Shown here: one piece after another, positions 28,711 to 48,064 of the stretch
Layout: the number at the start of each line of letters is the position of its first letter
Position numbering within the stretch: position 1 is the stretch's first letter
DNA from: Candidatus Nitrotoga sp. AM1P
GTDB taxonomy: Bacteria > Pseudomonadota > Gammaproteobacteria > Burkholderiales > Gallionellaceae
Reading direction: 5' to 3'
DNA length: 64,000 nucleotides
Assembly: GCF_013168275.1 (NCBI RefSeq)
Contig: NZ_AP019547.1
Coordinates: forward strand, 992,001-1,056,000
Notes under the pieces: model-generated
Database searches by the model: none
What the model was told of the DNA's origin: nothing
What the model saw: the letters and a program-made list of their open reading frames with translations, nothing else
Translations under genes and position numbers: made by a program

Positions 28711-30993
28711 ATGAAAGTTTCTGTGATTGCCAACCTCAACCAATCTTTAGTGCTGCTCACAACTCTTTGTTTAAGCTTCTCGTCTCTTTCATGGGCCGCA
28801 CAAATAGATCCACCTGTCCTCGTGCCAAAGACAGAAACCCCAACAATTCCCAGCCGCCAGTCAGTATTAACCATGAAGGACATCGGCGCTTCCCGCCCAA
28901 TCGAATTGAAAGGCGTGAACAGTAGTGCCTATCTTTCTTTGGGTGTGCGGCTGGATGAGGTCGTCACCAAGGCCAAACTGCATCTAAACTACACACTATC
29001 TCCCGCACTGCTACCAAATATCTCTCATCTCAAGGTATATCTGAACGATGAAGTGTTAGCTACGTTACCAGTGACCAAAGAAAATCCGACTGGCCCACAA
29101 AAACTTGATGTTGATCTTGATCCCCGTTTCTTTACTGACTTTAACAAACTGCACTTGCAATTCATCGGTCATTACACCAATGATTGCGAATTTCCTCTCC
29201 ACTCCAGCTTGTGGGCCAACATTAGCAACATGAGCACGCTGGAAATAAATTTGCAATCAATCGCTCTACGCAACGATCTTGCTCTGCTGCCAGCTCCCTT
29301 CTTCGATCAACGAGACAATCGCTTACTTAACCTGCCTTTCGTATTTGCCACCCAACCCTCTCTAAGTTCATTGCGAGCAGCGGGCGGTATCGCCTCCTGG
29401 TTTGGTGCTTTGGCGAGCTATCGCGGTGCCCGCTTTCCAGCCTATTTGAATCGTCTGCCAGAACGCTATGGCGTGGTTTTCGTGACCAATGACGAACGAC
29501 CAGAATTTCTTGCTAAATATCCCAAAGTGGACGCACCAACCATCTCTCTGATGCAACATCCGGAAAATCCTACAGGCAAGCTACTCCTCATCCTTGGTCG
29601 TAATGCTGCCGACCTGCAGCTAGCTGCAGATGCCTTGGTTCTGGGCAAAGCTGTCATGACTGGCACTTCAATTACCGTCAAGACACTGGAATATCCACCG
29701 CGTCGTGTCGCTTACGATGCGCCTAACTGGCTGCAATCAGGCCGTCCCATACCATTGGGACAACTCGTCAATAGCCCGGCCGACCTACAGCGCCAGGGGC
29801 AGCCTCTCGAACCAATTCTCATCAACGCCCGCTTGCCAGCCGATCTGTTTACCTGGGAAGTGAAGGGAGTACCGATTGACCTCAAATACCGTTACACGCC
29901 ACCGGCAGAACAAGGCGATGCCAATCTGAGAATTGAAATAAACGACCAATTTATCGAAGCAATACCGCTGCTGTCCGGCGCAGGAACCCGAGAACAGAAC
30001 CGCCTGATACTGCCTCTTCTGGATGATGGTTCCTTGCGGGAGCAAAGCGGAGTGGTAATCCCCGCTTTCCACCTGGGCAGCAATAACCAACTACAGTTTT
30101 CATTTTCCATTCCTTTCAGTGATAACGGTCGCTGCAAATCTTCACCTCAAGGAAACATGCGCGCGGCAATCGATCCAGATTCAACTTTAGATTTAAGCCA
30201 TTTATACCACTATGCAGCGATGCCAAACTTGGCATTTTTCGCTAATAGTGGATTTCCGTTCACCAAGTACGCCGACCTCGCCGAGACCGCGATCGTCATC
30301 CCCGATCAGCCTAACACCTTTGACATGGAAGCTATGTTCGCTTTACTAGGCCATATGGGCCGTTCCACCGGAGTTCCCGCTCTACACTTCAAACTCCTAC
30401 AGACAAAATCCGTACAAGACGCAAAAAATTTAGATCTGCTGGTGATTGCCAGCGGTGCCAACAAAGATCTTCTCGCGAGTTGGGGCAAATCCCTTCCTGC
30501 CCTTCTGGAAGCAGGAAGCCGCACCTTTGCGCCTTTGGGCAAAGCCATGGATATGGCTTATGAATGGTTCGGACTGAGTGATAACAAAACATCCAAATCT
30601 GGAGAAGGCACCATACTTCTTGGCTCCGGACCTTTGGCTGCCCTCATCGGCTTTGAATCACCGCTCAGCCCGTCACGTAGTGTCATCGCCCTTACTTCCA
30701 ATACCCCCACAGCTTTGACCTCGGCTCTTGATGCCCTGAATGATGGCGGGAAAGTTCAATACATCCGCGGTGACCTCGCTTTAATGCGTGGCGAAAGTGT
30801 CGAGAGCTTTCGCGTTAATAATGTGTATTACATAGGCGAATTACCGTGGTGGCGCTGGATATGGTTCCACTTGAATCACCACCCACTGCTCCTGACTGCT
30901 ATCGGCGTCGCAATCGGCCTTTTTGTTGCCCTACTTGCCTTTGGTGCCCTACGTAATCTGGCTACCAAACGACTCGGTCAACACAAGAAATAA
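28711..30993 (+). CDS. bcsB: Cellulose synthase periplasmic subunit BcsB
   Basis: 760 residues. Signal peptide (about residues 1-30, ending LSFSSLSWA), then the large periplasmic region with two carbohydrate-binding and two flavodoxin-like domains (for example TNDCEFPLHSSLWANIS and NGRCKSSPQGNMRAAIDPDS), and one C-terminal membrane helix (HHPLLLTAIGVAIGLFVALL) that docks onto BcsA. BcsB guides the nascent glucan through the periplasm and is needed for BcsA activity. It is unusual that bcsA is not next to bcsB but lies in the opposing operon at 37722-40289. bcsZ follows 10 bp after its stop. Confidence 0.95.
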   Translation: MKVSVIANLNQSLVLLTTLCLSFSSLSWAAQIDPPVLVPKTETPTIPSRQSVLTMKDIGASRPIELKGVNSSAYLSLGVRLDEVVTKAKLHLNYTLSPALLPNISHLKVYLNDEVLATLPVTKENPTGPQKLDVDLDPRFFTDFNKLHLQFIGHYTNDCEFPLHSSLWANISNMSTLEINLQSIALRNDLALLPAPFFDQRDNRLLNLPFVFATQPSLSSLRAAGGIASWFGALASYRGARFPAYLNRLPERYGVVFVTNDERPEFLAKYPKVDAPTISLMQHPENPTGKLLLILGRNAADLQLAADALVLGKAVMTGTSITVKTLEYPPRRVAYDAPNWLQSGRPIPLGQLVNSPADLQRQGQPLEPILINARLPADLFTWEVKGVPIDLKYRYTPPAEQGDANLRIEINDQFIEAIPLLSGAGTREQNRLILPLLDDGSLREQSGVVIPAFHLGSNNQLQFSFSIPFSDNGRCKSSPQGNMRAAIDPDSTLDLSHLYHYAAMPNLAFFANSGFPFTKYADLAETAIVIPDQPNTFDMEAMFALLGHMGRSTGVPALHFKLLQTKSVQDAKNLDLLVIASGANKDLLASWGKSLPALLEAGSRTFAPLGKAMDMAYEWFGLSDNKTSKSGEGTILLGSGPLAALIGFESPLSPSRSVIALTSNTPTALTSALDALNDGGKVQYIRGDLALMRGESVESFRVNNVYYIGELPWWRWIWFHLNHHPLLLTAIGVAIGLFVALLAFGALRNLATKRLGQHKK

Positions 30994-31003
30994 GCACCTG
31001 GTA

Positions 31004-32215
31004 ATGGAATACTTATTCGTGGATACCGGGCGCAAGGCGAGCATTTTGCTGTACCGGGGATACCAAATTCTCGCTACGCTCTGCTTCTGCTGGGGAACTG
31101 CGCAGGCAGTAACAACCGAACCCACTTGCCAGGCAGACTGGCCTGCTTGGCAAAACTTCAAGTCAGAATTCATCAACGAGGGCGGACGGGTAGTGGATGG
31201 CAGCACCCCCCGTAAACAGACCGTGTCAGAAGGGCAGGCCTATGCGCTGTTTTTCGCCTTAGTAGCCAACGATCGCAAAACCTTCGACAAGATCCTGCAA
31301 TGGACCGAAAACAACTTGGCAAATGGCGATCTCACCAGCCATCTGCCCGCGTGGCTATGGGGTCGCAGAGATGATGGCAGTTGGGGTGTGCTGGACAGCA
31401 ATCCGGCATCTGATGCCGATCTGTGGATAGTCTATGCATTGGGCGAAGCTGGCCGGCTCTGGGGCGAACGCCGCTTCGTTGCACTTTCATCACTGTTGGC
31501 CAGCCGTATCTTGCGCGAAGAAACCGCAGACCTACCTGGTTTAGGCCCCACTCTGCTGCCTGCCCCGCGCGGCTTCCAGACCGGAGTGAAAACTTGGCGC
31601 CTCAATCCCAGCTACCTGCCCATACAGCTAATGGACTGGCTAAGTAGCCGGAGTCCTGATTCCACTTGGCGGCGAATCTCGGAATCCTCCCAGCGGATCC
31701 TTTTAGAATCGGCCCCGAATGGATTTTCACCTGACTGGACAGTCTATCAGGACAGCAAAGGATTCCGAATAGATAGTGCAGGAAAAGAGAAAGGCACAGG
31801 CGGCTATAACGCCATCCGGGTTTATCTGTGGGCCGGTATGCTTGCGCCCGACGCTTCTGCCCGACCACGACTTCTTGCTGCTTTTTCCCCCATGGCCAGC
31901 TTTATCACGCGCCACGGCTACCCGCCAGAGTCTGTCAATATAATCACGGGTGAAGCCAATGGCCCAGGGCCATCAGGCTTTTCCGCCGCACTGCTACCTT
32001 TCCTGGCCGCCCGGGAAGATAGCGCTGCCCTGCAGGCACAACGCGATCGTCTGACGGCTCGCCCACCGCGGCCAGACGCCTACTATGAACAGGCGCTTTC
32101 CCTCTTTGCCCATGGCTGGATGGACGGGCGCTACCACTTCACAACAAATGGCAGCCTGCTGCTCTCTTGGCAAAAACCATGCAGCTCCGCCTCCTCCCGC
32201 TTACCTTCGCACTGA
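31004..32215 (+). CDS. bcsZ: Periplasmic endo-1,4-beta-glucanase BcsZ (GH8)
   Basis: 403 residues from ATG 31004, 10 bp after the bcsB stop; an earlier in-frame start would lie inside bcsB. After an N-terminal export signal (GYQILATLCFCWGTAQA) comes a glycoside hydrolase family 8 (alpha/alpha)6 barrel. Visible are the general-acid Glu in TVSEGQAYALFFAL, DDGSWGVLDSNPASDADLW with substrate-contacting residues, and the later Asp in SPDWTVYQDSKGF. The enzyme trims cellulose in the periplasm and is needed for good cellulose output in other bacteria. bcsC starts inside its 3' end (36-bp overlap). Confidence 0.95.
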   Translation: MEYLFVDTGRKASILLYRGYQILATLCFCWGTAQAVTTEPTCQADWPAWQNFKSEFINEGGRVVDGSTPRKQTVSEGQAYALFFALVANDRKTFDKILQWTENNLANGDLTSHLPAWLWGRRDDGSWGVLDSNPASDADLWIVYALGEAGRLWGERRFVALSSLLASRILREETADLPGLGPTLLPAPRGFQTGVKTWRLNPSYLPIQLMDWLSSRSPDSTWRRISESSQRILLESAPNGFSPDWTVYQDSKGFRIDSAGKEKGTGGYNAIRVYLWAGMLAPDASARPRLLAAFSPMASFITRHGYPPESVNIITGEANGPGPSGFSAALLPFLAAREDSAALQAQRDRLTARPPRPDAYYEQALSLFAHGWMDGRYHFTTNGSLLLSWQKPCSSASSRLPSH

Positions 32216-35200
32216 CTCTGGCTGGGTTGCTAAGTATTCCAACCCTTGCCCGTTCAGAAAATAGCGCTAGTGCCGACCTGCTGCGCAGCGCTCACATGTG
32301 GGAAGCCAAAGATCGCCCGGATTTGGCACGTGTTATGCTGGAAAAATTACTGACCATCGAATCCAATCCAGAAGTACTATTTATGCTGGGAAGCATTGAG
32401 CTACGATCAGGAAATATAAAACTTGCCGGTGAATATTTGCGTCGCCTGGAACAGCGTTATCCTCAGCACCCCAAGATTCTGGGCCTGCGCAGCCTATATC
32501 GGGTTAACACCACTGAAAAACAGACTCTGGCAAACGCACGTCTAATGGCCAGAGCCGGCAATACCAAAGAAGCTGCCAAAATTATGCGCCGGTTATTTCC
32601 GGAAGCCCCTCCTCCAGGTGAGCTCGGACTCGAATATTACCAACTCGTGAGTAGCACTGCCGCAGATCAGCAAGCAGCAAAGTCTGCTCTCAACAAGCTT
32701 TACCGGGAAACAGGAGAAGCACGCTACCGCCTTGCCTGGCTTAAGCTGCAGAGTAATCAGCGCAGCAAACAGGAAATCCTGCAGGGTTATGAATCCTTGG
32801 CCGCTGCGCCCGACGTTAACCGACAAAAATTACGCGAAAACTGGTGGGCTGCCATAAAGCGTCTCACAGCAGCACCAGCAGCATTACCCTGGGTCCGCCG
32901 CTATCTGAAAGAATTTCCGAATGACCAGAATGCCATCGAATATCTGGCAGAATTACAACAATTGCATGAGAAAGCGTTGCGCATCGCCAACGACCCTGCG
33001 GTACGTGCCCGCCAGAGTGGGATCGCTTTTCTGGAACACGAACAACTGGAAGACGCCCAGCGGGAGTTGCAAAAGTCGCTATCAAAGCGCCCCAAGGATC
33101 CCCAAGTACTGGGTAGCATGGGCTTGCTTCGCTTGCGCCAGGGACATCACGAAGAGGCTAAAAGCTGGTTTCAGCGTGCAGCCAAGGCTGAACCGGGCAG
33201 CAACAAATGGTTTGGTCTGATCCGCACTGCAAATTTCTGGGGGCAAATGAAACGGGCCGATGAACTACTCGAAGCCGGAAAGCTGGCTGAAGCACAACAA
33301 TTTGTACGACAAGCACTGAATATCGAGCCAAACAATGCTGATGGACTTGCTCTACTGGGCAATATTCTCGCCCGGGGCCAGAATCTGGCCGGTGCCGAAT
33401 CACTCTACCGTGAGGCACTCAAACGAGATGCGAGCAATACTTCAGCTATGCGCGGCCTACTTGCGCTGCTCTCCCGTAGCGAACGTCGCGATGAAGCCCA
33501 AGCGTTAATCGCCCAATTTCGCCAGAATAACCCCAAGGAAGCCAATCGATTCAACGAAAGCCAAGCCAGCTTGCTACGTGATGAAGCCGAGACATTCATC
33601 AGCGCTCACCGCCCCAGCCACGCCCTGCTGGCACTGGAAACCGCTGTACAACTCGCCCCTCGTGATGCCTGGATTCGCCATGACCTGGCAAATCTATATG
33701 AGAGTTTGGGCTTGCAGACCCTCAGTCGTCGTGTAATGGCAGAGGGTATTGCGCTGGTTCCGAACGACTCCGCCATGAACTATGCCTATGCTTTGGTACT
33801 GACTGCCCAGGAGCGGGAAATAGAAGCACTGCAGCGCTTGGCCCGTATTCCCCCGTCAGCACGTTCCAGCGCCATGAATGAACTGGAAACGCGTGCCTGG
33901 ATCAAGTTGCGCATCCGTCAGGCCACTAAGCTCCAAGCTGGCGGCAGGAAAGACGAAGCGATCCGAATGCTGCTCCTTGCCGAACAACATGCCGCAGACA
34001 ACAATCCGAGTGCAATCGAACAAGTGTCAGAAGGCTGGTTTAGCCTAGAACAACCGGCTCGCGGCCTTACCCTGATGAAACGACACCTGATTAACGCGAG
34101 ATCAGCAACGATGGACAGCCAGCTTTATTATGCCTCGTTGCTCAATCGAGCAAAACAAGATGACACACTGAACATTTTCCTGCCAGAACTACAGCAACGT
34201 CCCGACTGGAATGACAAGCAACGGGAGACTATGCTGGCAATTGAAACTGACCTTACTGCCCGGCAAATCGAGCAGCTGCTACAGCGTGGCCAAATAGCTC
34301 AAGCTCAAACTCTCGCTGCCCGGGCAGTCGTTGCAGGGCGAGCAGGCGACATTTCGACGCTGAAAGCCCAGGCTCGCCTGTTACTGGAGGCTAACGACTG
34401 GAAAGCCGCCCTGCTGATCTTGCAGGCGATACTGGACAAACATCCGGACGACTTGGAGTCACGTCTAAATCTCGCACAAGCTCACGCCCAGGCAGGAAAA
34501 AAGCAGGCTGCTCAAGAGGTGATCGATCAACTGCTGCCTCGTTTGCGTGAGAATGATGTGGACACCAAATTGTCCATTACCCGACTGGAAACTCGCCTTG
34601 GAAATATGGATCGAGCTAGAAAGATAGTGACGAAACTCCTCACCAGCAACCCCGATAATCCAGATGTTTTGATTCAGGCAGGTCGTATCGAACGCAGTGA
34701 CCGACGGTACTCTGCTGCCTTGGCTTATTTCCGCCAAGCACTGATCCTGGAAAGGCGCACTCCAGGCGCGGTAACAACCGTCGAATCAGTGCCTCTACTC
34801 GAGCTGGATCCCAAGCATCCAATGATCGGCCTAGCACCACAACCTGGTTACGCCATAGGGTATCCCAATGCAGTTAAGAATACAGACATCGCTGACAACC
34901 AAAAATCTACACCAGAGCTAGGGAAAATAGCTTTAATTCGCCCTCCCACCAGAGCAGAGGAGGAAATTACCCGTATTGAGGCCAGGCGAGATCCCCGCAT
35001 TGAAATAGGGTTCGAAAAGCTCAGCAGGAACTCTTCAAACGGCACATCCACCTATCACGGAACGGAGACTCCAATAGTCGGGTGGTGGCCGGTGGGCTAT
35101 AATGGACACGGTTTTGTCCACGTGGATCGGGTCAGTGTCAATGCAGGCCAGCTCACCCAAGACGATGCTCCTCTCTTCGGCAAGCTGGGTGTAAGGCCTT

Positions 35201-36114
35201 CTTCTCTCCCCCCTCCATTTGCGCAAAAAGCAGATGGCACCTCGGTCGGTGTGGGTTATGAGGGTGAGGCATTACGCTGGGATTTGGGCATGATCGGTAT
35301 CGGTTTTCCAGTTCAGAATATGGTCGGGGGCATTCGCAAAGGCTGGGAAGTAAACAAAGTGGACTACGCCCTTGAAATTTTCAGGCGCCCCCAAACTAAC
35401 AGCCTGCTTTCCTATGCCGGCACGCGCGACCCCGCTACAGGTGAAATCTGGGGGGGTATCGCCTATACCGGGGTTGGCGGTCGGGTGGCTCACACTTTTG
35501 GTCAATTTAATACTTTCGCCAGCGCCGAATATGGCCTATTGCGGGGCAAGAATGTACTCGATAACAATCGTCTCGCCCTGCGCATCGGTATAGACAAAGA
35601 CGTGCTGCGCCAGGAAGATAAGTGGGTCAATCTGGGACTAACCCTGACCCACTGGCGCTACAAAGAAAACGAATCCTTCTACACTTTTGGTCATGGCGGT
35701 TACTACAGCCCGCAAAGCTACACTTCAGTGAACCTGCCAGTAGAGTGGGCAGGCCGTAGCGGGAAGCTTTCTTATTTGGTGCGAGGTTCAACCTCCTTCG
35801 CCTGGACCAATGAGAAACGTATGCCTTATTACCCAACAAACAGCGCGTTGCAAAGCGATGCTATTAATATTGGCAATAACATTGACGCTGGGTTTTACCC
35901 CGGAGGTGACGGCGGTGGGAAAGGCTATTCCCTGCGGCTGGCAACCGAATACCAGATTACGCCTCACCTGGCTATTGGTGGATACCACAACATGGATCGC
36001 ACAGCTTTCTATACTCCAAACTTAACTTTCGTCTATCTGCGCTACCTGTTTAAGGCTCATTCAGAACCAGTACGCTTCCCGCCGATAACGGCCAGGCCTT
36101 ACTCCCGCTTCTGA
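32179..36114 (+). CDS. bcsC: Cellulose export protein BcsC (TPR domain and outer-membrane barrel)
   Basis: 1311 residues from ATG 32179, inside the end of bcsZ; a TTG four codons earlier also exists. Signal peptide (PLTFALTLAGLLSIPTLA), then about 900 residues of TPR repeats (for example MLGSIELRSGNIKLAGEYL, GSMGLLRLRQGHHEEAKSW, LALLGNILARGQNLAGAESL), a linker, and a C-terminal beta-barrel from about residue 970 with alternating aromatic strands, ending near LTFVYLRYLFK. BcsC spans from periplasm to outer membrane and exports the polymer. Its stop lies one base from the bcsG stop on the other strand, so the two operons collide head-on. Confidence 0.95.
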   Translation: MQLRLLPLTFALTLAGLLSIPTLARSENSASADLLRSAHMWEAKDRPDLARVMLEKLLTIESNPEVLFMLGSIELRSGNIKLAGEYLRRLEQRYPQHPKILGLRSLYRVNTTEKQTLANARLMARAGNTKEAAKIMRRLFPEAPPPGELGLEYYQLVSSTAADQQAAKSALNKLYRETGEARYRLAWLKLQSNQRSKQEILQGYESLAAAPDVNRQKLRENWWAAIKRLTAAPAALPWVRRYLKEFPNDQNAIEYLAELQQLHEKALRIANDPAVRARQSGIAFLEHEQLEDAQRELQKSLSKRPKDPQVLGSMGLLRLRQGHHEEAKSWFQRAAKAEPGSNKWFGLIRTANFWGQMKRADELLEAGKLAEAQQFVRQALNIEPNNADGLALLGNILARGQNLAGAESLYREALKRDASNTSAMRGLLALLSRSERRDEAQALIAQFRQNNPKEANRFNESQASLLRDEAETFISAHRPSHALLALETAVQLAPRDAWIRHDLANLYESLGLQTLSRRVMAEGIALVPNDSAMNYAYALVLTAQEREIEALQRLARIPPSARSSAMNELETRAWIKLRIRQATKLQAGGRKDEAIRMLLLAEQHAADNNPSAIEQVSEGWFSLEQPARGLTLMKRHLINARSATMDSQLYYASLLNRAKQDDTLNIFLPELQQRPDWNDKQRETMLAIETDLTARQIEQLLQRGQIAQAQTLAARAVVAGRAGDISTLKAQARLLLEANDWKAALLILQAILDKHPDDLESRLNLAQAHAQAGKKQAAQEVIDQLLPRLRENDVDTKLSITRLETRLGNMDRARKIVTKLLTSNPDNPDVLIQAGRIERSDRRYSAALAYFRQALILERRTPGAVTTVESVPLLELDPKHPMIGLAPQPGYAIGYPNAVKNTDIADNQKSTPELGKIALIRPPTRAEEEITRIEARRDPRIEIGFEKLSRNSSNGTSTYHGTETPIVGWWPVGYNGHGFVHVDRVSVNAGQLTQDDAPLFGKLGVRPSSLPPPFAQKADGTSVGVGYEGEALRWDLGMIGIGFPVQNMVGGIRKGWEVNKVDYALEIFRRPQTNSLLSYAGTRDPATGEIWGGIAYTGVGGRVAHTFGQFNTFASAEYGLLRGKNVLDNNRLALRIGIDKDVLRQEDKWVNLGLTLTHWRYKENESFYTFGHGGYYSPQSYTSVNLPVEWAGRSGKLSYLVRGSTSFAWTNEKRMPYYPTNSALQSDAINIGNNIDAGFYPGGDGGGKGYSLRLATEYQITPHLAIGGYHNMDRTAFYTPNLTFVYLRYLFKAHSEPVRFPPITARPYSRF

Positions 36115-36115
36115 T

Positions 36116-37681
36116 TCACAGCCCAGGCTGATAATCGATCCATGTGCCCTCAGAGCGCATCAGGTAACCGTTGTCACGCCCAATAACAACGATATCCTCG
36201 TTTTCGCTCACGAAAGGTGTACCCGGCAGATTTTGTACCCGCTCCGCCAGCGGTTTGCCGCCCGTTCCGGCAAAAGGACTGTCCGCGATAAAGTCGGCAA
36301 GAAGTGTGCTAATCGCAAAGTAACTTACTGACTTATCCACCTGCAAGGGTTGATGTGGTGCATCCCCGGATTTGCCCTTGAAGCCTACCAGTTTGATGGC
36401 GGCGGGCACCAGTGTGATCTTGGGATTGGGAATTTCACGCATACCGGATATCTGCACCTTGTCTCCCCGCAAAGCAGCACCATGTTCCGGCACTAAAATC
36501 ACCACCACCGGCCTTCCTTTGCCCTCCAGGAAAGTAATGAAACGATCAAAATCTGACATTAATTTATCCAGTCGCGGTTTGAAAGTTTCAAGACTAGAGC
36601 GTGACTTAACCCCAGAAACACGGTTTCCATCATGCAAGGCAATAGTGTTGTAATACAAGACTCGAGGCCGAACTGATGGCGGCTGGCGTGTCCACCACTC
36701 CGAGAGTAGCGGGAAATCCTCATAAATAGGAGTATCGTCAAAACTGTGCATCACTACGGGTGCGAAGCGATTGTCATCCAGTTTTACCCCGATACCGGAT
36801 GGCTCTTGTACCATACCTGCAAATTGGTCGAAGTGTCCATCATGGTTAAGCAAGCCCCGCACTTCAAAGCCGGCAGCCTCAAAATTACGGAAAAGATTGC
36901 ATTGGGACGCATCCACTTCATACAGCTTGCGGTGCGGAAGCTGACCGCAATTACTGTGAAACAAACGTAAAGCACCTGGGCCACTATAGCTGGCGGCAGT
37001 ATTAAAACGACGAAACACTACGTCAAAATGATTTAACAGGGTCGAGTTGTTTTCGCCCACATAATCCATATCGTCCCATGAAAGAGAACAGACATGCAGG
37101 AACACCACATCAAAGGGCGCAGCAGAATCTGCAATAGCTGGAAAGCTCACCCGTTTGCCCTGTTCGACGGCGTAAAAAGTTTCCAACTGGGCGGTCGGCT
37201 CCTGCTTAGGCAAAACCGTAGCGCTTCCATTCACTAACGTCGGGTGAGGAGCAACGACCGAGACAGCATTGCCACCCTGCAGACTAGCAAAGGGCGCGCT
37301 CAGGATGCCAAGAAAAGCCAGAGTGGCAAAACGTAGACGGCGACGCAACAGCAAATAAACTACTAGCAGGAGACCCAGAACAGCAATCACCCAGATATTC
37401 ACAAAGCGGCCCAGGAGTTCAAGCAAATAATCGCTACCAAACCCTGTTAAAGCTTGCTTCTGGGACAGCACGCGCGAAATCGGTGGCAACCAGGAATCAT
37501 GGTACAGCAACGCCAGCCCCACTGGAATGGCCAGCATCGCACGAATCAGGCGATGCCGAGTAGACGCCAGGGGCAGCACGAGTACAATGGCGAAGGCCAG
37601 ATTAGGAAGCCAGTGAAAGCCAATAAATCCACTGTAAAACAAGCCTAGCTTGGCAATAAAGTAAATACTCCAGTAACCCAT
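36116..37681 (-). CDS. bcsG: Cellulose phosphoethanolamine transferase BcsG
   Basis: 521 residues. About four to five N-terminal membrane helices are followed by a periplasmic alkaline-phosphatase-fold domain. Zinc-site and nucleophile regions match the family: HVCSLSWDDMDY with the Cys, SYSGPGALRLFHSNCGQLPH with the catalytic Ser, and LVPEHGAALRGDK with the Glu-His pair. BcsG moves phosphoethanolamine from phosphatidylethanolamine to cellulose, leaving diacylglycerol in the membrane. It is last in the operon dgkA-bcsE-bcsF-bcsQ-bcsA-bcsG, and the presence of dgkA at the head fits recycling of that lipid. Gap to bcsA is 40 bp. Confidence 0.95.
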   Translation of the reverse strand: MGYWSIYFIAKLGLFYSGFIGFHWLPNLAFAIVLVLPLASTRHRLIRAMLAIPVGLALLYHDSWLPPISRVLSQKQALTGFGSDYLLELLGRFVNIWVIAVLGLLLVVYLLLRRRLRFATLAFLGILSAPFASLQGGNAVSVVAPHPTLVNGSATVLPKQEPTAQLETFYAVEQGKRVSFPAIADSAAPFDVVFLHVCSLSWDDMDYVGENNSTLLNHFDVVFRRFNTAASYSGPGALRLFHSNCGQLPHRKLYEVDASQCNLFRNFEAAGFEVRGLLNHDGHFDQFAGMVQEPSGIGVKLDDNRFAPVVMHSFDDTPIYEDFPLLSEWWTRQPPSVRPRVLYYNTIALHDGNRVSGVKSRSSLETFKPRLDKLMSDFDRFITFLEGKGRPVVVILVPEHGAALRGDKVQISGMREIPNPKITLVPAAIKLVGFKGKSGDAPHQPLQVDKSVSYFAISTLLADFIADSPFAGTGGKPLAERVQNLPGTPFVSENEDIVVIGRDNGYLMRSEGTWIDYQPGL

Positions 37682-37721
37682 GAGTGCTATAGACTCCCAA
37701 AATTTATACGACCTGCAACCA

Positions 37722-40289
37722 TTAAATCATTTGTCTCCCAAGCCAACCCTGAACTGACTGACGCTGCCTTGCCAAACCTTTGCCCAGGTTTCGCCACAGA
37801 CTACGGTAACCTTTAAATCCGAAGATGGCGATTTCTTTGAAGCTCTGTAGTGGGCGATCCGCGCCCTGCTCGTCCGACCAATTGCTCCAGGCATCGGCTC
37901 GAGCAAAAGTACACCGAACCAGATTTGCTTCCTGCTCTATGCTCAAATTGTCGAACTGAACACCAAGCTTTTTGCCATGACTGGCAATTACCCTTGCTGG
38001 AAAGGCGAATTCCACCTCGCCATGCCAAAGTGAAACCCAAACCCGTTCTTTCACCGGCAATGCTAATTCGCGATCAAGCAATAGACCAAGGCCAGTCATG
38101 GAATAGTCTTCGGTGCGACACATTTTGGTACTCCCATCCGTAAAATGCAGTGCCACCAGCAAATTGGCAGATACTCGGTGGGATACTCGCACCTGTCTGG
38201 CTTCAGTGGCGACGCCAATAGCTGCACCCAATATCAGGAGGTTGTAAATTGTCCAGGTCAGGTTGAGCAACACCGTGCCCATTTCAAAAGTGTTCCAGAA
38301 AAAAAGCCGTCCCAGACCGATGGTCAACCCGACAATATTAAGGACAGCTAGCACAATATACGGCTTGGAAATAGCCCAGTCGAAGAAAGAGTGCTCGATC
38401 AAGCCTCCTTTAGCTGTGACATTGAATTTTCCGGCTTTCGGATTGAAGATGGCGACAGCTGTGGGCAGGATGATGTACCAAGCCAAAACTGATTCATATA
38501 CCTCAGCCCAGAACGAGTGCCGATGTGATCCCTGGATATGTGCATTAGCCAGATTGGCCTGCAACATATGGGGCAACACATAAAGAGCGAGCATAGCGGC
38601 CGCCGCGCTGATTATATGAACTTCAAAATAAAGATAGGTCAGAGGGGCCGTCAGAAAAATAAGACGCGGAATGCCGTAGAAAAAATGCAGCATCGCGTTG
38701 CTGTAGCAGATGCGTTGAAAGAAGCTCAGCCCCTTACCCAGGAATGGATTGTCGATTCTGAAAATCTGCGCCATACCCCGTGCCCAGCGAATACGCTGCC
38801 CGATGTGGCTAGAGAGGCTTTCGGTAGCCAGCCCTGCTGCCAGGGGAATATTAATATAGGCGGTGGTGTAACCAAGCCGGTGAAGTTTCAGGGCGGTGTG
38901 AGCATCTTCGGTCACCGTTTCCACGGCAACCCCTCCCACCTCTTCGAGTGGCCCTCTACGCAACACCGCACAAGAGCCACAAAAAAAGGTGGCATTCCAG
39001 AAATCATTGCCGTCCTGGATCAAGCCATAGAACAAGGCGCCTTCGTTGGGGACACGACGGAAAGTGCCGAGATTACGCTCAAAGGTGTCAGGAGAAAAAA
39101 AGTGATGGGGCGTTTGCAGCATGGCGCAACGCTTATCCTTGAAAAACCAGCCCATTGTAGACCGCAGAAAGGAATTAGTAGGTAGATGGTCGCAGTCAAA
39201 AATAGCCACGTATTCACCGTGGGTCAATTTTAGTGCATGGTTCAGATTACCCGCCTTAGAATGGGCGTTGTCGGGTCGAATGATGTAGCCCACGCCAGCT
39301 TCCTTGGCAAAGCGGCGAAATTCATCCCGCCGCCCATCGTCAAGAATATAAATATTGAGCTTATCACTGGGCCAGTCTATCCCCTTAGCTGCAAGAACCG
39401 TCGGTTCCAACACCTTGAGCGGTTCGTTGTAGGTGGGAATGAAGACATCAACACTGGGCCACAAGGAAGTATCCAATGGCAGGCTCAAGGTGTGCCGCTT
39501 GAGCGGCCAGGCATTCTGAATATAGCCGAGCAGAAGAACCAGCCAAGTGTATATCTCCGCAAGGAGCAAACCGATGGCAAGAAAAGTCTCCCAGCCGGAA
39601 TCCAACGGAATGGTCTGGGTCAATCGCCACCAGCCGTAACGACATGAAGCGAGCACTGAAAGGGCGATCAGTATCAGAGCGGGCAGATTACCGGGAATAC
39701 GCCGTACAAACAGTGCAGCTCCCCACAAGCAAACAAGGAATAAAAACTGTCCAAACCAGGTAAAGGGAGTGGTGACTACCAGCCAGAAAAAGAATGTTGA
39801 AAACAGAACCAGTAACCACAGTAGCCAAGGTTTTCGAAAAGACGGTGTCTCCAGCCAGCCCTCCAAGCGGCGACCAACTGCCTCGTGGTTCACTGCCGGC
39901 AGAAAAGAAAGTAGCCGCTGCCAAAGCCAGCTCAGGGCTCGCACGCCTGCCAGTACAATCCACTCCACTGTTAAAAACAACAGGCCGATAGTGTCAACCG
40001 ACAAGGTTAGAAAGGTACGCCAGAAAGAGGTTTCAGTACGCGCGGCGTGGCCCGAAGGAAAAACAAATAAATACAGCAACCACTGCCAGACACTACGCTT
40101 GTCAACCACACCCAGTTTCTCAGCTAGCCAGTCCAGCGGATCAAGGCGCGATCTAATCTCCGAATGAGCCAATTCAGTCAACTCATCAGCATGCGGCAAC
40201 CAGAACAGTCGCTTCAGCCATAGGCTTGGTTGGTCTGGTTGAGACACACCTAAATGACGAGCAACCCAGAGGACAACAGGACGTATCAA
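37722..40289 (-). CDS. bcsA: Cellulose synthase catalytic subunit BcsA
   Basis: 855 residues, the length of enterobacterial BcsA. Family 2 glycosyltransferase domain with DDGRRDEF, the metal-binding D-C-D (FDCDHLPTNSF), acceptor-site TED (VTEDAHTALK), gating/finger FFCGSCAV and QRIRWARGMAQ (QxxRW). About eight membrane helices surround it. The C-terminal PilZ domain has an R-rich start (RQVRVSHR) and DYSMTGLG, the c-di-GMP-binding pattern, so the enzyme should be activated by c-di-GMP. The start overlaps bcsQ by 4 bp. Its periplasmic partner BcsB is encoded in the opposing operon, which is unusual. Confidence 0.97.
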   Translation of the reverse strand: MIRPVVLWVARHLGVSQPDQPSLWLKRLFWLPHADELTELAHSEIRSRLDPLDWLAEKLGVVDKRSVWQWLLYLFVFPSGHAARTETSFWRTFLTLSVDTIGLLFLTVEWIVLAGVRALSWLWQRLLSFLPAVNHEAVGRRLEGWLETPSFRKPWLLWLLVLFSTFFFWLVVTTPFTWFGQFLFLVCLWGAALFVRRIPGNLPALILIALSVLASCRYGWWRLTQTIPLDSGWETFLAIGLLLAEIYTWLVLLLGYIQNAWPLKRHTLSLPLDTSLWPSVDVFIPTYNEPLKVLEPTVLAAKGIDWPSDKLNIYILDDGRRDEFRRFAKEAGVGYIIRPDNAHSKAGNLNHALKLTHGEYVAIFDCDHLPTNSFLRSTMGWFFKDKRCAMLQTPHHFFSPDTFERNLGTFRRVPNEGALFYGLIQDGNDFWNATFFCGSCAVLRRGPLEEVGGVAVETVTEDAHTALKLHRLGYTTAYINIPLAAGLATESLSSHIGQRIRWARGMAQIFRIDNPFLGKGLSFFQRICYSNAMLHFFYGIPRLIFLTAPLTYLYFEVHIISAAAAMLALYVLPHMLQANLANAHIQGSHRHSFWAEVYESVLAWYIILPTAVAIFNPKAGKFNVTAKGGLIEHSFFDWAISKPYIVLAVLNIVGLTIGLGRLFFWNTFEMGTVLLNLTWTIYNLLILGAAIGVATEARQVRVSHRVSANLLVALHFTDGSTKMCRTEDYSMTGLGLLLDRELALPVKERVWVSLWHGEVEFAFPARVIASHGKKLGVQFDNLSIEQEANLVRCTFARADAWSNWSDEQGADRPLQSFKEIAIFGFKGYRSLWRNLGKGLARQRQSVQGWLGRQMI

Positions 40290-41059
40290 ACTTGCGCCCT
40301 TCCGTCGAGGCTGCTTGCGGGCCCAGCAAGTAGCCAGTTGAGCAGGCCGTTCAAATCATGAGCGACCAGAGAATCCGGACTTAAGCTTTGTAAGTTCGTT
40401 CGATTTGCGACAGCACGTGGAATCGCTTCATCCCGATGTACGGGATAAGGAGATAGTCGCATTTGTAAAGTCGACCGAAATCGTGCCAATAGATCACTTT
40501 GCAGCGCCCGAGTGCTATCCAAACTATTTACCACATAGATGAGCTGACTCCCTGGAGCGCACCGGGATAGCGTATTTTCCACCACTGGTAACAAAGCCAG
40601 GGAGCGAACATCTGGCGCCAGCACAGCAAGCACCAGATCCGCTGCAACTACAGCCTGGCGTGCATAGAGAGACGGCAGGCGGGGCGTATCCATTAATAGA
40701 AAAGCTCCTGACGGATAATCAACCTGAGCGATACATTTCTTGAGCCATTCGGGTTCTGCACGCAGATGTTGCTCAAAAGTGACCAGGCTAGCTTCATTAG
40801 CTCGGCCAAATGGCAAACAAGCCACTTCATTTGCATTGACAAGCGCACTCTTGCCAAACTCTTTCCTTGTTAAAAAATCTGGCAGCAGCCCGCTTAGACT
40901 AGCTTCATCACTACCGAGTAGAGTGGATAATAAATTTTGGGGATCAAAGTCCAAAGCCAGGGCCGCAATTTCGCGCTGGGCAAGTAAGGTGGCCAGGCTG
41001 GCCGTCAGGGTGGATCGACCTACCCCGCCTGCAGCTGAAACAATGGCAATCTTGAACAT
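40286..41059 (-). CDS. bcsQ: Cellulose biosynthesis ParA/MinD-like ATPase BcsQ
   Basis: 257 residues. SIMIBI-class ATPase with a deviant Walker A (SAAGGVGRSTLTASLA): the usual signature lysine of KGGVGKT is Ala and the P-loop Lys is Arg, while LALDFDPQN (switch region) is normal. BcsQ in enterobacteria localises and assembles the synthase at the pole together with BcsE and BcsF. Whether the Arg-containing P-loop still hydrolyses ATP is open. It lies between bcsF (3-bp gap to its ATG) and bcsA (4-bp overlap), so translation is coupled. bcsR was not seen. Confidence 0.93.
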   Translation of the reverse strand: MFKIAIVSAAGGVGRSTLTASLATLLAQREIAALALDFDPQNLLSTLLGSDEASLSGLLPDFLTRKEFGKSALVNANEVACLPFGRANEASLVTFEQHLRAEPEWLKKCIAQVDYPSGAFLLMDTPRLPSLYARQAVVAADLVLAVLAPDVRSLALLPVVENTLSRCAPGSQLIYVVNSLDSTRALQSDLLARFRSTLQMRLSPYPVHRDEAIPRAVANRTNLQSLSPDSLVAHDLNGLLNWLLAGPASSLDGRAQV

Positions 41060-41062
41060 GAA

Positions 41063-41233
41063 TCAGTCCCTCACAGCAGGCACCCGTTGGGTGTGACTTG
41101 GCTTATAGGGCACTATGCAACGCAAATGCCGACGCAAGAACAGGCGCCGTAGCAGCCGGTACTTCAGTACATAATAGGCAACTACAGCTAACAGTACGCC
41201 TGAAAGGAGAGATAAAATAAAATTTTTAAGCAT
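41063..41233 (-). CDS. bcsF: Small membrane protein BcsF
   Basis: 56-codon gene between bcsE and bcsQ. The ATG at 41233 follows the bcsE stop by 3 bases; the TGA at 41063-41065 is 3 bases before the bcsQ ATG. The product starts MLKNFILSLLSGVLLAVVA, one membrane helix of about 20 residues, followed by an Arg-rich stretch (YRLLRRLFLRRHLR) and a tail VPYKPSHTQR. Enterobacterial BcsF has the same layout: single helix, basic segment, then a Y-x-K-P motif and basic tail. BcsF anchors BcsE and its partners at the membrane. Position and architecture together make the call; the sequence itself is too short for strong homology. Confidence 0.85.
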   Translation of the reverse strand: MLKNFILSLLSGVLLAVVAYYVLKYRLLRRLFLRRHLRCIVPYKPSHTQRVPAVRD

Positions 41234-41236
41234 TAT

Positions 41237-43030
41237 CTAAAGAATTTGTTCAGACAAAGTAGAAAGCATGTCCGTCGTTGCACGCCGCGGCAGGGGAAAA
41301 GGTCGCATGGTACGGTGCTTGCCCACTGGGTGCTCAGTGGTTTCAACCAATGAAGACGGTGAAATCTGCCTCACCTGCTTCTGGAGGCCAGTTGTTGCGA
41401 TCGAGCGCTTGATTTTGTCTTCCCGAATCGGCAAATCAAATTGCAGTACTGATGAATAATCGTACATAGGCGAGTTTTCGTTGTCTCGCCGCAACTGACC
41501 GATGGACTCCCAGATCAACTCTGGTGTCGGCTCAATAATATGGGAAGAAAACAGCTCCGTCACGGGCACGGAAAAAAAACGATCGAGAGTCGAATCCACA
41601 TCCGACTCTCGACAAGCAAACAAAAACAGATAAATACTATTCTGATCAGCAGTAAAAATATCGCCAAGTCTTCTTGCCTGGCAAGCCTGAAGAGCATCCA
41701 GTTGTGCCACCCTGGAAAGAATGGGAAGGCGTACCAGGCTATGGCCCAGATCAATACGTTCTGAACGCTTGAGCATTGCCGCCACTTCGCGACAAAAGGT
41801 GGACGGCGATAGGTAGCCGGCAATCCGGTTCGGCTCAGCGGCCTGCACGGCAAGAAGATATTCATTCTCAACCGGGCGGCTGAATATCTGGTCAGACATG
41901 CCATTTATAACCTGCACTACGCGAGAGAATGGAATTTCCTTGTACACCATCAAGTTGGTCCCCAAATGCAGGAGCATCAACTCGTTGTTGTAACGAAGCT
42001 TATTGGTAGTCTCTCGCACAACAATTTTCAGGGAACGGGGGTGGGACGAGCGCATACGATGAACAAATCGCGATAGCACTTCAAACTCCTGGTCACCATC
42101 CGCATGCAACAGGATAGTAGCGGCGACCGCATTATCACAAACCGCTTCCATATCAGACAGATTACTTACCACTGTCCATTCTGCGGGCACACCTTTGACA
42201 CCCGCCACGGTAGCTGCTGTCGCTATGACTCGCCCCTGGTCAGGCGCATAAAAAACCACCTGTTCTCTAGCATCCATTTCAGAGCCATCTAAACTCAGAG
42301 ACTTATCCTGTGCAGACAATTTCAAGCCAAATTGCCGATGCACACTCTTACCCTGCCCCGCCCACCGTTCAACAGTTAACAAACCACCACCGCAATCCGC
42401 ATCCAATACGGCGAGATTGGGCACAAGCTCCGGCAAGGCTCGCAGCAATGGCAAAAAACCGTGAGCTCCTTTAATATCTTTAATTATTAGCAGAATAGGC
42501 GCATGATGATCCGCTGCCCAAGCTTTCCAGGCTTGCCACTGTTTGATAAATAGATCTTGGTTCTGCCAATCAAAAATCGCCTGACCCTCCTGAACCAGCA
42601 AAGTGTGCTGCGCTGTCACGCCACAAACACCAATCTCATCAAAGAAGCGATTAGCACCCTGTCGTCCGATGATCTCGGCACAATCATCGGTCACACGGAA
42701 AAAAATAAGTACTCCAGGATTGCCTTTATCGGAGGTATCAAGACTGCGGGCAAACTGATCCATAAATTTCTGGCCAGACTCTCCCGATGCCAATATGGCC
42801 AACGGCCCTGCCTGTCTGAAATTGCGTGCTGACGAAAGTGCACAACACTGTCCTAGCGCCTCGTCCCGCACCAGCAAAACACTTGCCAGGCCGGCGCCGC
42901 AAAGGCCCACATCAGCAGGTAGACCAAGCACTCCCAGATGGGTCTGATTGATCGTGGCTTCCCTCAGAGTATTGTCTTTACGCAATAAGCGCATGATCGA
43001 AGACACAAATCGCCCGAGCATATTTATCAT
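41237..43030 (-). CDS. bcsE: c-di-GMP-binding cellulose regulator BcsE
   Basis: 597 residues. The N-terminal region is a receiver/ATPase-like domain typical of BcsE and the C-terminal part contains a degenerate GGDEF-like domain. An RxGD I-site is visible at residues 454-457 (ARRLGDIF), and a second R-x-x-D at CRESDVDSTL. In enterobacteria BcsE binds c-di-GMP through this site and interacts with BcsF, BcsQ and BcsG to boost cellulose output. Its ATG overlaps the dgkA stop (TAATG), so it is translationally coupled to dgkA. The bcsF gene follows 3 bases after its stop. Confidence 0.92.
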   Translation of the reverse strand: MINMLGRFVSSIMRLLRKDNTLREATINQTHLGVLGLPADVGLCGAGLASVLLVRDEALGQCCALSSARNFRQAGPLAILASGESGQKFMDQFARSLDTSDKGNPGVLIFFRVTDDCAEIIGRQGANRFFDEIGVCGVTAQHTLLVQEGQAIFDWQNQDLFIKQWQAWKAWAADHHAPILLIIKDIKGAHGFLPLLRALPELVPNLAVLDADCGGGLLTVERWAGQGKSVHRQFGLKLSAQDKSLSLDGSEMDAREQVVFYAPDQGRVIATAATVAGVKGVPAEWTVVSNLSDMEAVCDNAVAATILLHADGDQEFEVLSRFVHRMRSSHPRSLKIVVRETTNKLRYNNELMLLHLGTNLMVYKEIPFSRVVQVINGMSDQIFSRPVENEYLLAVQAAEPNRIAGYLSPSTFCREVAAMLKRSERIDLGHSLVRLPILSRVAQLDALQACQARRLGDIFTADQNSIYLFLFACRESDVDSTLDRFFSVPVTELFSSHIIEPTPELIWESIGQLRRDNENSPMYDYSSVLQFDLPIREDKIKRSIATTGLQKQVRQISPSSLVETTEHPVGKHRTMRPFPLPRRATTDMLSTLSEQIL

Positions 43031-43422
43031 TACCTAAGAGACCACAAAATCATGGCCCAAATCAAAATGGCATTCATTAGTGCCAACAAAACGGCAGCGC
43101 TGCCCATGTCCTTTGCCCTCTTGGCCAATGGATGGATATCCAGTGATACCCGATCTACATTGGCTTCAATGGCCGAGTTAATCATTTCCACTACCAATAC
43201 CAGCATAACGCTGGCCACCAACAACACCCGCTGGGTCACGTCCACCGGCACCATGAAGGCCACGGGCACAAGAACGATGGCGAGAATAACTTCCTGACGA
43301 AAAGCGGCCTCATCTTGCCATGCAAGTAGTAGTCCAGACAGGGAATAGCTCAGGGCATTCACCAGCCGGCGTAACCCGGAAGCTTTGTGAGGGTTCAGAT
43401 TTGTCATGTTTACGAATTTCAC
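43030..43422 (-). CDS. dgkA: Diacylglycerol kinase
   Basis: 130 residues with three membrane helices and the DgkA signature EMINSAIEANVDR, Asp/Glu-rich catalytic residues in AFRQEVILA and AKDMGSAAV. It phosphorylates diacylglycerol to phosphatidic acid at the inner membrane. The stop overlaps the bcsE ATG (TAATG), making dgkA the first gene of the leftward bcs operon. BcsG releases diacylglycerol when it transfers phosphoethanolamine to cellulose; a co-transcribed kinase would recycle it. In other bacteria dgkA pairs with EptA-type transferases for the same reason. The functional link here is inference from context. Confidence 0.96.
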   Translation of the reverse strand: MKFVNMTNLNPHKASGLRRLVNALSYSLSGLLLAWQDEAAFRQEVILAIVLVPVAFMVPVDVTQRVLLVASVMLVLVVEMINSAIEANVDRVSLDIHPLAKRAKDMGSAAVLLALMNAILIWAMILWSLR

Positions 43423-45609: not shown

Positions 45610-48064
45610 TTGACGCTCACACAGCGTTTACGCGCTATTCATACCATGTTTTATGGCTTAGCCACATTAGCCAGCATGACAATGGCAACACCATTCGCCT
45701 ATGCAGCGGATACTGCGCAGATCCAGCCAGCACTCAAACACTATGACGTTCCTGCCGGACCGCTTGCTACCCGCTTAAATGACCTCGCCCGAACAGCGGG
45801 TGTGCTCTTGTCGCTCGATCCGGCACTCACTGAAGGCAAGCGTACCAATGGAATATCAGGTGACTATGCGCTTCCAGATGCATTTGCAAGATTATTGGCT
45901 GGTTCAGATGTTGAAGCAGTTGCGATTTCAGGTGGCCGGTACACCCTAAAAACCTTACCCGTTGTTCCGATGCAGCGGAGAGCTGAGCTCAATGCAACGA
46001 CATTACCCGAAGTTAGGGTGTCGGCGGCAATGAACAATAAAGAAACTGCCTATGGCCCATTAACGGGTTATGTTGCCAAGCGTAGCGCTACGGCAACCAA
46101 GACCGACACCCCGATTATCGAAATACCGCAATCAATCTCCGTGATTACCCGTGACGAACTTGACGACCGCGGCGTTCAAGGGATGACGGAAGCATTACGA
46201 TATATCCCTGGCGTAGTCGTCGACAATTTTGGATACGAACCCAGAGGCTTCGAGTATCTCCTTATGCGTGGCTTCAATAGAACCAATTCAGCCAATTTCC
46301 GGGACAGCCTACACCAGCTAACAGAAGGGCTGTTCTACTCGTCTTTATCTTAGCGAACCCTATGGAATTGAACGAATTGAGGTGATGCGCGGCCCAAGTT
46401 CTATTATGTTTAGCAAAGGCGATGCAGGGGTGGTTGTGAATCGTGTCAGCAAGCTTCCCAGCCGGGACGCCATGCGCGAGATCGAAGTGCGAGTCGGCAA
46501 CTTTAACCACAAGCAAATCAATGCTGACCTGGGTGGAACACTCAATAAGGACGGGATACTGCTTTATCGCATTGTCGGCCTCGGGCTGGATACAGACACG
46601 CAAATCAAATACGCTAATGGAGAGCGCCCTTCCATTGAACGACAATATCTGGCACCTTCCTTGACATGGCACCCCTCAGCCGACACATCAATTACGCTAC
46701 TTGCGGATATGCTAAAAAACACGACCGGAGCCTCTCCCTTTTATCTGGTTGCCCCAAATGGAGTATTAACCCGCACGATGGCCGCTGATCCTAGTTTTGT
46801 GAAATATAAACAGAATCAGGGTTCTATTGGCTACAAAGTCGAACACCATTTCAATGATACCTGGACGATCCGGCAAAATTTTCGTCATGCGCAAACTAGT
46901 GTCAAGGTGAAGGAGGTTAATGCAGTCGATTTCCTTGAGGACGGCCAGATACTACTCCGCTCCGCAACATCAACTAAAGAACGAGTTAAACAGACACTTA
47001 TTGATACCCAGTTACAGGCTAAGTTACGTACCGGAACAGCGGAACACACTATGCTGTTCGGGGTCGGCGCCAACCGCGCCGATCTGACTCTCAACGCACT
47101 CACCAGTGATATAACCCCTACACTGAACGTATTTTCCCCTACATACAATCAGACGATACCCGATCCTGACATATTGGCCGCGAATAGAAAACAAAGGGTT
47201 CAGCAGCTTGGTTTCTACCTTCAGGATCAGGTTAAATTTAATCAGCGCTGGATTCTTACGTTGGGTGGACGTCAGGACAGGGTAAAAACTGTTCATAACG
47301 ATGTCCCGCAGGGCATCGCAGAAACATCGAAACAAAATGCGTTTAGCGGCCGTACGGGGTTAACCTACCTCGCGTCCAATGGCTTGGCACCTTACATAAG
47401 CTACGCAGAATCTTTCGTACCCCAAGTCTCTTCAACATTTGACGGTAGACTTCTTGATCCAAGTCGCGGCCGGCAATATGAAATTGGAATTAAATATCAA
47501 CCGAAAAACAGTAATAGTCTATATACAGCTGCAATATTTGACCTGACCAAAACGAATGTTGCAACGCCAGATCTGAATCCTGAACACCTGGTGCTTAATC
47601 CTTTTGCCAGCATTCAGACGGGGACAATTCGATCGCGCGGACTGGAACTGGAAGCGCGGACCGAACTTACCCGTAACCTGAACGCTATTGGAGCCTTCAC
47701 TTACAACGATGTTGAAGTAACCAAAAGCAACGATGTTGATTTAGGTAAAGTTCCACCGCGGGTACCTAAAACAACGGCCTCACTCTGGCTGGACTATAAG
47801 CCGTCTGGACCCGCTTGGCAGGGATTTTGTTTCGGTAGCGGCGTTCGATATACCGATAGCCGCTTTAACGACCCTACCAATACCTCGTCCTTACCTTCGT
47901 TTACTTTGTTTGATGCGGGAGTTCGCTACGAATCAGGCCATTGGCGCTATGCCCTGAATGCCGCGAACCTGTTCAACAAAGAATACACCTCTACGAGAAA
48001 TACCTTTACCCATTTTCTGGGCACACAGAGAGCTGTGATAGCTAGCGTGAAATATCGGTGGTAA
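45610..48064 (+). pseudogene. TonB-dependent siderophore receptor (FecA/FpvA type) with a frameshift
   Basis: The 5' part (TTG start 45610) encodes a signal peptide, a secretin/STN signalling domain (LKHYDVPAGPLATRLNDLAR) that would contact FecR, and the start of the plug (IIEIPQSISVITRDELDDRG). The frame ends at a TAG at 46351. The plug continues in the next frame from about 46340 (TRLYLSEPYGIERIEVMRGP) and runs through the 22-strand barrel to the terminal aromatic (SVKYRW) at 48064. One inserted base or two lost bases near 46336-46345 therefore split an otherwise complete receptor of about 815 residues. A sequencing error is possible, but the truncated PepSY gene next to it supports real decay. 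Confidence 0.88.

Follow-up and report, generated by a model that had tools for sequence, protein, structure and literature searches.

Phosphoethanolamine transferase genes paired with dgkA, which encodes diacylglycerol kinase, have been described for mcr-3, mcr-7 and mcr-8, and in the mcr-3-dgkA and mcr-7-(dgkA-pap2) colistin-resistance cassettes the kinase is presented, in the consulted parts of the sources, as handling the lipid by-product of the adjacent transferase (PMC7559476; PMC10285318). An mcr-type transferase-dgkA pair was also seen in one plasmid stretch examined here. A 2022 paper reportedly finds, going by its title, that DgkA is essential for polymyxin resistance conferred by EptA and MCR-1. 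The salvage pathway for membrane-derived oligosaccharides in Escherichia coli uses the same DgkA family and the same reaction, but the donor is phosphatidylglycerol, via mdoB, and the part of the source consulted mentions no shared operon (PMC8027125). Here, we describe a dgkA at the head of a bcs (cellulose synthesis) gene set in a 64,000-nucleotide stretch (the window) of the single-contig 3.0-Mb genome of Candidatus Nitrotoga sp. AM1P (NZ_AP019547.1, positions 992,001 to 1,056,000); its nearest bcsG relatives are mostly Candidatus Nitrotoga. While the acceptor in the mcr cassettes is lipid A, here it would be cellulose, with BcsG as the transferase and the kinase encoded within a polysaccharide-secretion operon. 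We consider it probable that the DgkA linked to bcs provides lipid salvage for the phosphoethanolamine-cellulose system.

Transferase-dgkA pairing is known for mcr cassettes, and what is new, within the literature searched, is its extension to bcs loci. Searches of that literature found no paper linking bcsG or cellulose synthase with dgkA or diacylglycerol kinase; one that mentions diacylglycerol kinase together with bcsB and cellulose is, by its abstract, on another subject. In the portions consulted, the BcsG structural paper gives the product as diacylglycerol and its main text does not contain the word "kinase" (PMC11379886), a BcsE structure paper and an operon survey make no mention of a lipid kinase, and a paper on iron oxidisers reports bcs genes and no dgkA.

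On the minus strand of the window the order is dgkA, bcsE, an open reading frame (ORF) in the bcsF position, bcsQ, bcsA and bcsG, and bcsB, bcsZ and bcsC are on the plus strand, reading toward bcsG (Table 1). The junctions from dgkA to bcsG range between a 4-nt overlap and a 40-nt gap. The gene order with short gaps or overlaps claimed in an earlier note, made from the letters of the window alone, was therefore confirmed, and all of the names are backed by Pfam except bcsF, which was named from position and size only because the 56-aa ORF has no match to Pfam BcsF. The same note had drawn attention to the overlap (TAATG) of the dgkA stop codon (43032-43030) with a bcsE ATG at 43030. The overlap is present, but the overlapping ATG is found in only 4/10 intact Nitrotoga-type loci (the window, L002, L005 and L011; L numbers are our labels for loci and G numbers for survey genomes), whereas an in-frame bcsE ATG 8 nt past the dgkA stop (43021 in the window) is found in 10/10. 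Whichever bcsE start applies, the junction is tight in all ten. The locus includes bcsA, B, C and Z plus bcsE, Q and G, and thus shares all of these with E. coli-like bcs systems (bcsRQABZC plus bcsEFG); it also has the 56-aa ORF in the bcsF position.

The match of the dgkA product to DAGK_prokar (PF01219; Table 1) compares with a cut-off of 22.3 bits, and the protein aligns with E. coli-type DgkA structures (E 1.1e-33). Where the PDB sequence has NEAAFRQE, VELLNSAIEA and RAKD, the window has DEAAFRQE, VEMINSAIEA and RAKD, and the active-site residues, which in E. coli DgkA we take to be E28, E69, N72, E76 and K94, are kept. NCBIfam returned no match for the six DgkA proteins tested. The start codon is probably the ATG at 43407 (125 aa) and not the GTG at 43422, because the closest homologues are mostly 125 aa (best 120 of 7843, from 8000 candidates scored); the longer GTG-start frame is likewise open. 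The median dN/dS over 45 pairs among the 10 Nitrotoga-type dgkA copies was 0.139, and these copies thus look to be under purifying selection. No second dgkA that could do the work, an outcome that the earlier note had said would tell against its reading, was found in the genome that contains the window, where PF01219 detected a single gene.

BcsG exceeds the cut-off of the TIGR03368 equivalog model (561 bits, cut-off 410) and aligns over nearly its full length with the solved BcsG chain 9b8v_B, with the S278, C243, HDG and EHG positions, as counted along the alignment, kept; for the conserved cysteine a role is presumed. In the consulted part of the structural paper, Ser278 is catalytic and belongs to a Ser/His/Glu triad (PMC11379886). 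When the same genome was searched with PF00884, BcsG itself gave no match and one match was returned (L082, C1:746244), to a large protein in which, by eye, a glycosyltransferase-like part is joined to a sulfatase-type domain. EptA, OpgB and LtaS are families that we take to match PF00884. As the lone match reads as a glycosyltransferase-sulfatase fusion, EptA, OpgB or LtaS as a real source of diacylglycerol was rejected for this genome, and no source of that type besides BcsG was detected by PF00884 (PF08019 was not searched).

BcsG would move phosphoethanolamine from phosphatidylethanolamine onto emerging cellulose, as reported for E. coli and as homology suggests here. Each phosphoethanolamine added would consume the head group of one phospholipid, and the diacylglycerol that should remain in the inner membrane would be converted by DgkA with ATP to phosphatidic acid, which returns to phospholipid synthesis. 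The chemistry put forward in the earlier note fits known biochemistry, as far as the consulted parts of the sources go: BcsG attacks phosphatidylethanolamine and releases diacylglycerol, though with the words "likely" and "assumed" (PMC11379886), while E. coli DgkA salvages diacylglycerol, null mutants accumulate approximately 20-fold more of it, and another likely source mentioned is eptA (PMC8027125). From this chemistry and the known transferase-dgkA pairs we infer a role in cellulose modification, and with it flux through the kinase and a need for it. If dgkA is co-transcribed with bcsEFQAG, as its position suggests, salvage capacity would be coupled to diacylglycerol output. In Nitrotoga, the same DgkA would have to cover any other diacylglycerol salvage too.

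To see how far the arrangement extends, BcsG was searched for in whole genomes of a class sample (5/369 positive), an order sample (33/399, two of them below the cut-off), a family sample (31/150) and a phylum sample (12/54 bcsB-positive genomes). A search for DgkA was positive in 62/63 bcsG-positive genomes, 14/17 genomes with bcsB and without bcsG, and 33/54 of the phylum sample. G571 and G662, both in the order sample and below the BcsG cut-off, were dropped before counting, as were weak BcsB matches in the same sample (G704, G503, G504, G464 and G536). The phylum sample took BcsB matches only up to E 1e-30. Partial extra bcsG pieces (G892, G867, G877, G773 and G487) were excluded when distances were listed, and G404 and G809, in which a fragment is the sole bcsG match, were kept. 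Linkage here means dgkA at most 16 kb from bcsG, a limit set after the distances had been seen (the set of 22 genomes is unchanged at 20 kb), and may be missed on some short contigs.

Of 75 bcsG-positive genomes, 73 carry dgkA, and in 22 of these 73 it is linked (1.16 expected). By genus, 6/35 are linked where chance predicts 0.46 if each genus is represented by one genome (Poisson P ~9e-6), and five genera remain when that of the window is excluded (P ~1e-4). Within 1 kb the counts are 6/73 genomes (expected 0.14) and 2/35 genera (expected 0.05). The linkage therefore extends beyond one strain, and a strain-specific accident, the outcome that the earlier note had said would tell against it, was rejected because it recurs in Nitrotoga-type loci and five other genera. 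None of the 59 genomes with bcsB and without bcsG is linked; 36 of them carry dgkA, and where it shares a contig with bcsB the smallest distance is 76 kb. Ignoring relatedness, the contrast between genomes is 22/73 versus 0/36 (P 6e-5), or 11/60 versus 0/36 without the genus of the window (P 0.006). Equal frequency at loci without bcsG, another outcome that the earlier note had said would tell against its reading, was not found at this level.

Between genera the contrast is weak, however, and several further observations count against our reading. With three genera counted on both sides and the 24 counted manually, 6/35 versus 0/24 gives a one-sided P of 0.036 and a two-sided P of 0.072, and without the genus of the window 5/34 versus 0/24 gives a one-sided P of 0.061. 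In 29/35 bcsG-positive genera that have dgkA it is unlinked, outside the order of the window none of 16 bcsG-positive genomes is linked although 15 have dgkA, and two bcsG-positive genomes (G371 and G967) gave no PF01219 match. The distance limit, chosen after the fact, is to be weighed with these. A promoter scan found no promoter-like site upstream on the dgkA strand; its single site was on the opposite strand, against 2.6 expected. Within Nitrotoga, locus L003 (taken as G806) has a broken dgkA before bcsE while the intact copy of G806 lies on a separate contig, and G812 keeps a dgkA nested in the linked Nitrotoga clade and has no bcsG match. Finally, the DgkA of G442, the only copy aligned from one of the linked genera (g305), is without the first conserved glutamate. 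All 12 bcsG-positive genomes in the phylum sample (of 54) are unlinked, which sets the window apart from E. coli-like bcs systems; dgkA of E. coli presumably lies outside its bcs system. A tblastn search with the DgkA of the window found no match in the 10 kb each side of bcsG in L012-L014 (a Nevskiaceae bacterium, Stagnimonas and Hydrocarboniphaga); the L015 stretch ends at a contig end.

The linked genes are arranged differently in different genera. In the five genomes of genus g274 the order is bcsG-dgkA, with junctions from a 4-nt overlap up to a 24-27 nt gap in the four measured. In G766, dgkA precedes bcsG on the same strand with 500 nt between, and in G684 dgkA is followed, after 274 nt, by bcsQ-A-B-Z-C (Z by position), with bcsG convergent. 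In the three genomes of g305, dgkA belongs to a c-di-GMP/cellulose operon (GGDEF-dgkA-ORF-bcsA-bcsC), in which it overlaps the gene after it, and GH8-bcsG occupies the opposite strand (domains from G442). That the g305 clusters are not for cellulose was rejected, as the G442 synthase passes the TIGR03030 cellulose-synthase model (730.7 bits, cut-off 699.1). The ORF that separates dgkA and the cellulose synthase is 230 aa in 3/3 g305 genomes (L048-L050; e.g. L049 15489-16181), and its G442 version has no Pfam match. In G620, dgkA is divergent from bcsB and from the remainder of a bcs cluster whose last gene is bcsG. Three Caballeronia plasmids, a count among the matches listed, repeat the G620 layout; dgkA adjoins bcsB on each, and the genes on its other side differ between plasmids. 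BcsG matched 39 plasmid records, of which six were examined, and DgkA matched 248, of which five were examined. The bcsG plasmids of Pseudoalteromonas, Catenovulum and Klebsiella have no annotated dgkA in the 15 kb each side (on one side of the Pseudoalteromonas plasmid only ~8.7 kb, to the record start), in a gene table that is incomplete.

As the layouts differ, they do not represent one inherited arrangement. In a tree built from 93 DgkA domains over 102 columns, in which many of the forks are unresolved, the 22 linked copies require eight label changes, of which at least six are forced by well-supported branches. The tree is without five of the 17 DgkA places in the set of 17 genomes with bcsB and without bcsG, and without all 38 from the phylum sample. 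Constraining 19 of the 22 linked copies (the g305 trio excluded) to one clade was rejected (p-AU 2.6e-8), and with the layouts this ruled out a single inherited arrangement. We read this as about six recruitments; some of the changes are losses. A further dgkA is present in 10/11 linked genomes outside Nitrotoga, compared with 6/51 unlinked bcsG-positive genomes and 6/36 controls without bcsG. This fits an additional enzyme for the cellulose system, and the dedicated kinase proposed in the earlier note is thus better supported outside Nitrotoga than within it.

In Nitrotoga itself, the DgkA search found one copy each in 17 of 19 genomes, so the linked copy is the only one found and is not exclusively dedicated. 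Ten Nitrotoga-type loci besides that in the window have dgkA in the same position, nine intact and one broken (L003); the loci of named relatives and the survey genomes overlap (e.g. L002 is G802) and are not independent. Eleven of the 12 genus members with a full bcsG are linked, the exception being G806, whose unlinked copy also nests inside the linked Nitrotoga clade, and G809 has a bcsG fragment only. Four of the six members without a bcsG match keep dgkA (G775, G812, G818 and G830); the two that lack both are G821 (83% complete) and G833 (72% complete). From the nested position of the G812 copy it appears that the enzyme also serves without bcs. These data can be read to mean that dgkA is a housekeeping gene downstream of which a bcs operon settled by chance in the Nitrotoga ancestor. 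The sole copy and its retention without bcsG agree with this, as does the moved or replaced dgkA of the G806 lineage, and four gene families on the far side of dgkA that are common to 7/11 linked Nitrotoga stretches suggest a stable dgkA neighbourhood apart from bcs. We nevertheless consider chance insertion unlikely. It leaves unexplained the five other genera, with other layouts and mostly a second copy, and the Caballeronia plasmids, and in the four bcs-free stretches with a labelled dgkA (G812, G818, G830 and G809) the gene is found among other genes, so that no shared ancestral site is visible.

It is considerably less likely still that DgkA was recruited for another role, such as phosphorylation of undecaprenol or supply of phosphatidic acid near the synthase, where it could act as a signal or as a structural lipid. 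The g305 proteins, which are only 33-35% identical to that of the window, could point this way; given this divergence and the missing glutamate in G442, their substrate is uncertain. Copies of dgkA also occur in exopolysaccharide clusters without bcsG, as in G836. However, cellulose synthase works from UDP-glucose and does not require a lipid carrier, the DgkA of the window keeps the E. coli-type residues, and the linkage accompanies bcsG, occurring in 0/59 genomes that have bcsB without it.

A lipid-salvage role for the linked kinase is therefore the reading that we retain. Its recruitment to bcsG loci, repeated and separate, points to a by-product of consequence for the cell and suggests that some cellulose systems bring their own membrane-lipid recycler. 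The principle known from colistin-resistance cassettes would thereby extend to biofilm polymers. It is about as likely as not that a dedicated kinase for diacylglycerol salvage is a hitherto unrecognised accessory of phosphoethanolamine-cellulose machines, recruited about six times independently and often beside a second dgkA, because decorating cellulose has a lipid cost so high that salvage must keep pace with synthesis. Lipid turnover would then limit the amount of modified cellulose per cell. Whether cellulose modification drives a build-up of diacylglycerol that the linked kinase relieves is a testable question.

Table 1. Cellulose synthesis genes and dgkA in the window
Feature	Position	Strand	Evidence and remarks
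dgkA, prokaryotic diacylglycerol kinase, 125 aa	43030..43407	-	PF01219, 120 bits
bcsE	41237..43030	-	PF10995 (CBP_BcsE), 312 bits; start 43030 or 43021
56-aa ORF, bcsF position	41063..41233	-	position and size only
bcsQ	40286..41059	-	PF06564 (CBP_BcsQ), 104 bits
bcsA, cellulose synthase with PilZ domain	37722..40289	-	PF00535, PF03552 (Cellulose_synt), PF07238
bcsG, cellulose phosphoethanolamine transferase	36116..37681	-	PF11658 (CBP_BcsG), 571 bits
bcsC, convergent with bcsG	32167..36114	+	PF05420, 325 bits
bcsZ, glycoside hydrolase 8, start uncertain	30923..32215	+	PF01270, 248 bits
bcsB	28711..30993	+	PF03170, 725 bits

In L168, from a plasmid of Caballeronia sp. M1242, a dgkA closely related to the bcs-linked one lies in a stretch that shows no bcs gene, ~4 kb from a gene for a phosphocholine-specific phospholipase C, an enzyme that likewise produces diacylglycerol. 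In G836 (L060 2538-7722), the unlinked second dgkA follows a gene for a YjbH exopolysaccharide-PAP2 phosphatase fusion and a phospholipid-methyltransferase-like gene. This cluster may be a further polysaccharide system that recycles its own lipids, and L061 (G810) has ORFs that look similar by eye.

Three to five bcsG matches each, some of them fragments, were found in G842 (L053/L054), G871 and G892. The BcsG of G842 has 267 residues ahead of the Pfam match that are themselves without a match, and its start is uncertain.

Past dgkA, away from the bcs genes, the window includes a FecI/FecR-type sigma pair followed by a TonB-dependent receptor split into ORFs of 247 and 560 aa (45610-48064). 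The same receptor is one ORF of 837-852 aa in the relatives L092 and L094. Beyond the receptor there is an IS1595-type transposase gene (48570-49532), and up to 50633 further ORFs resemble, by eye, pieces of transposases.

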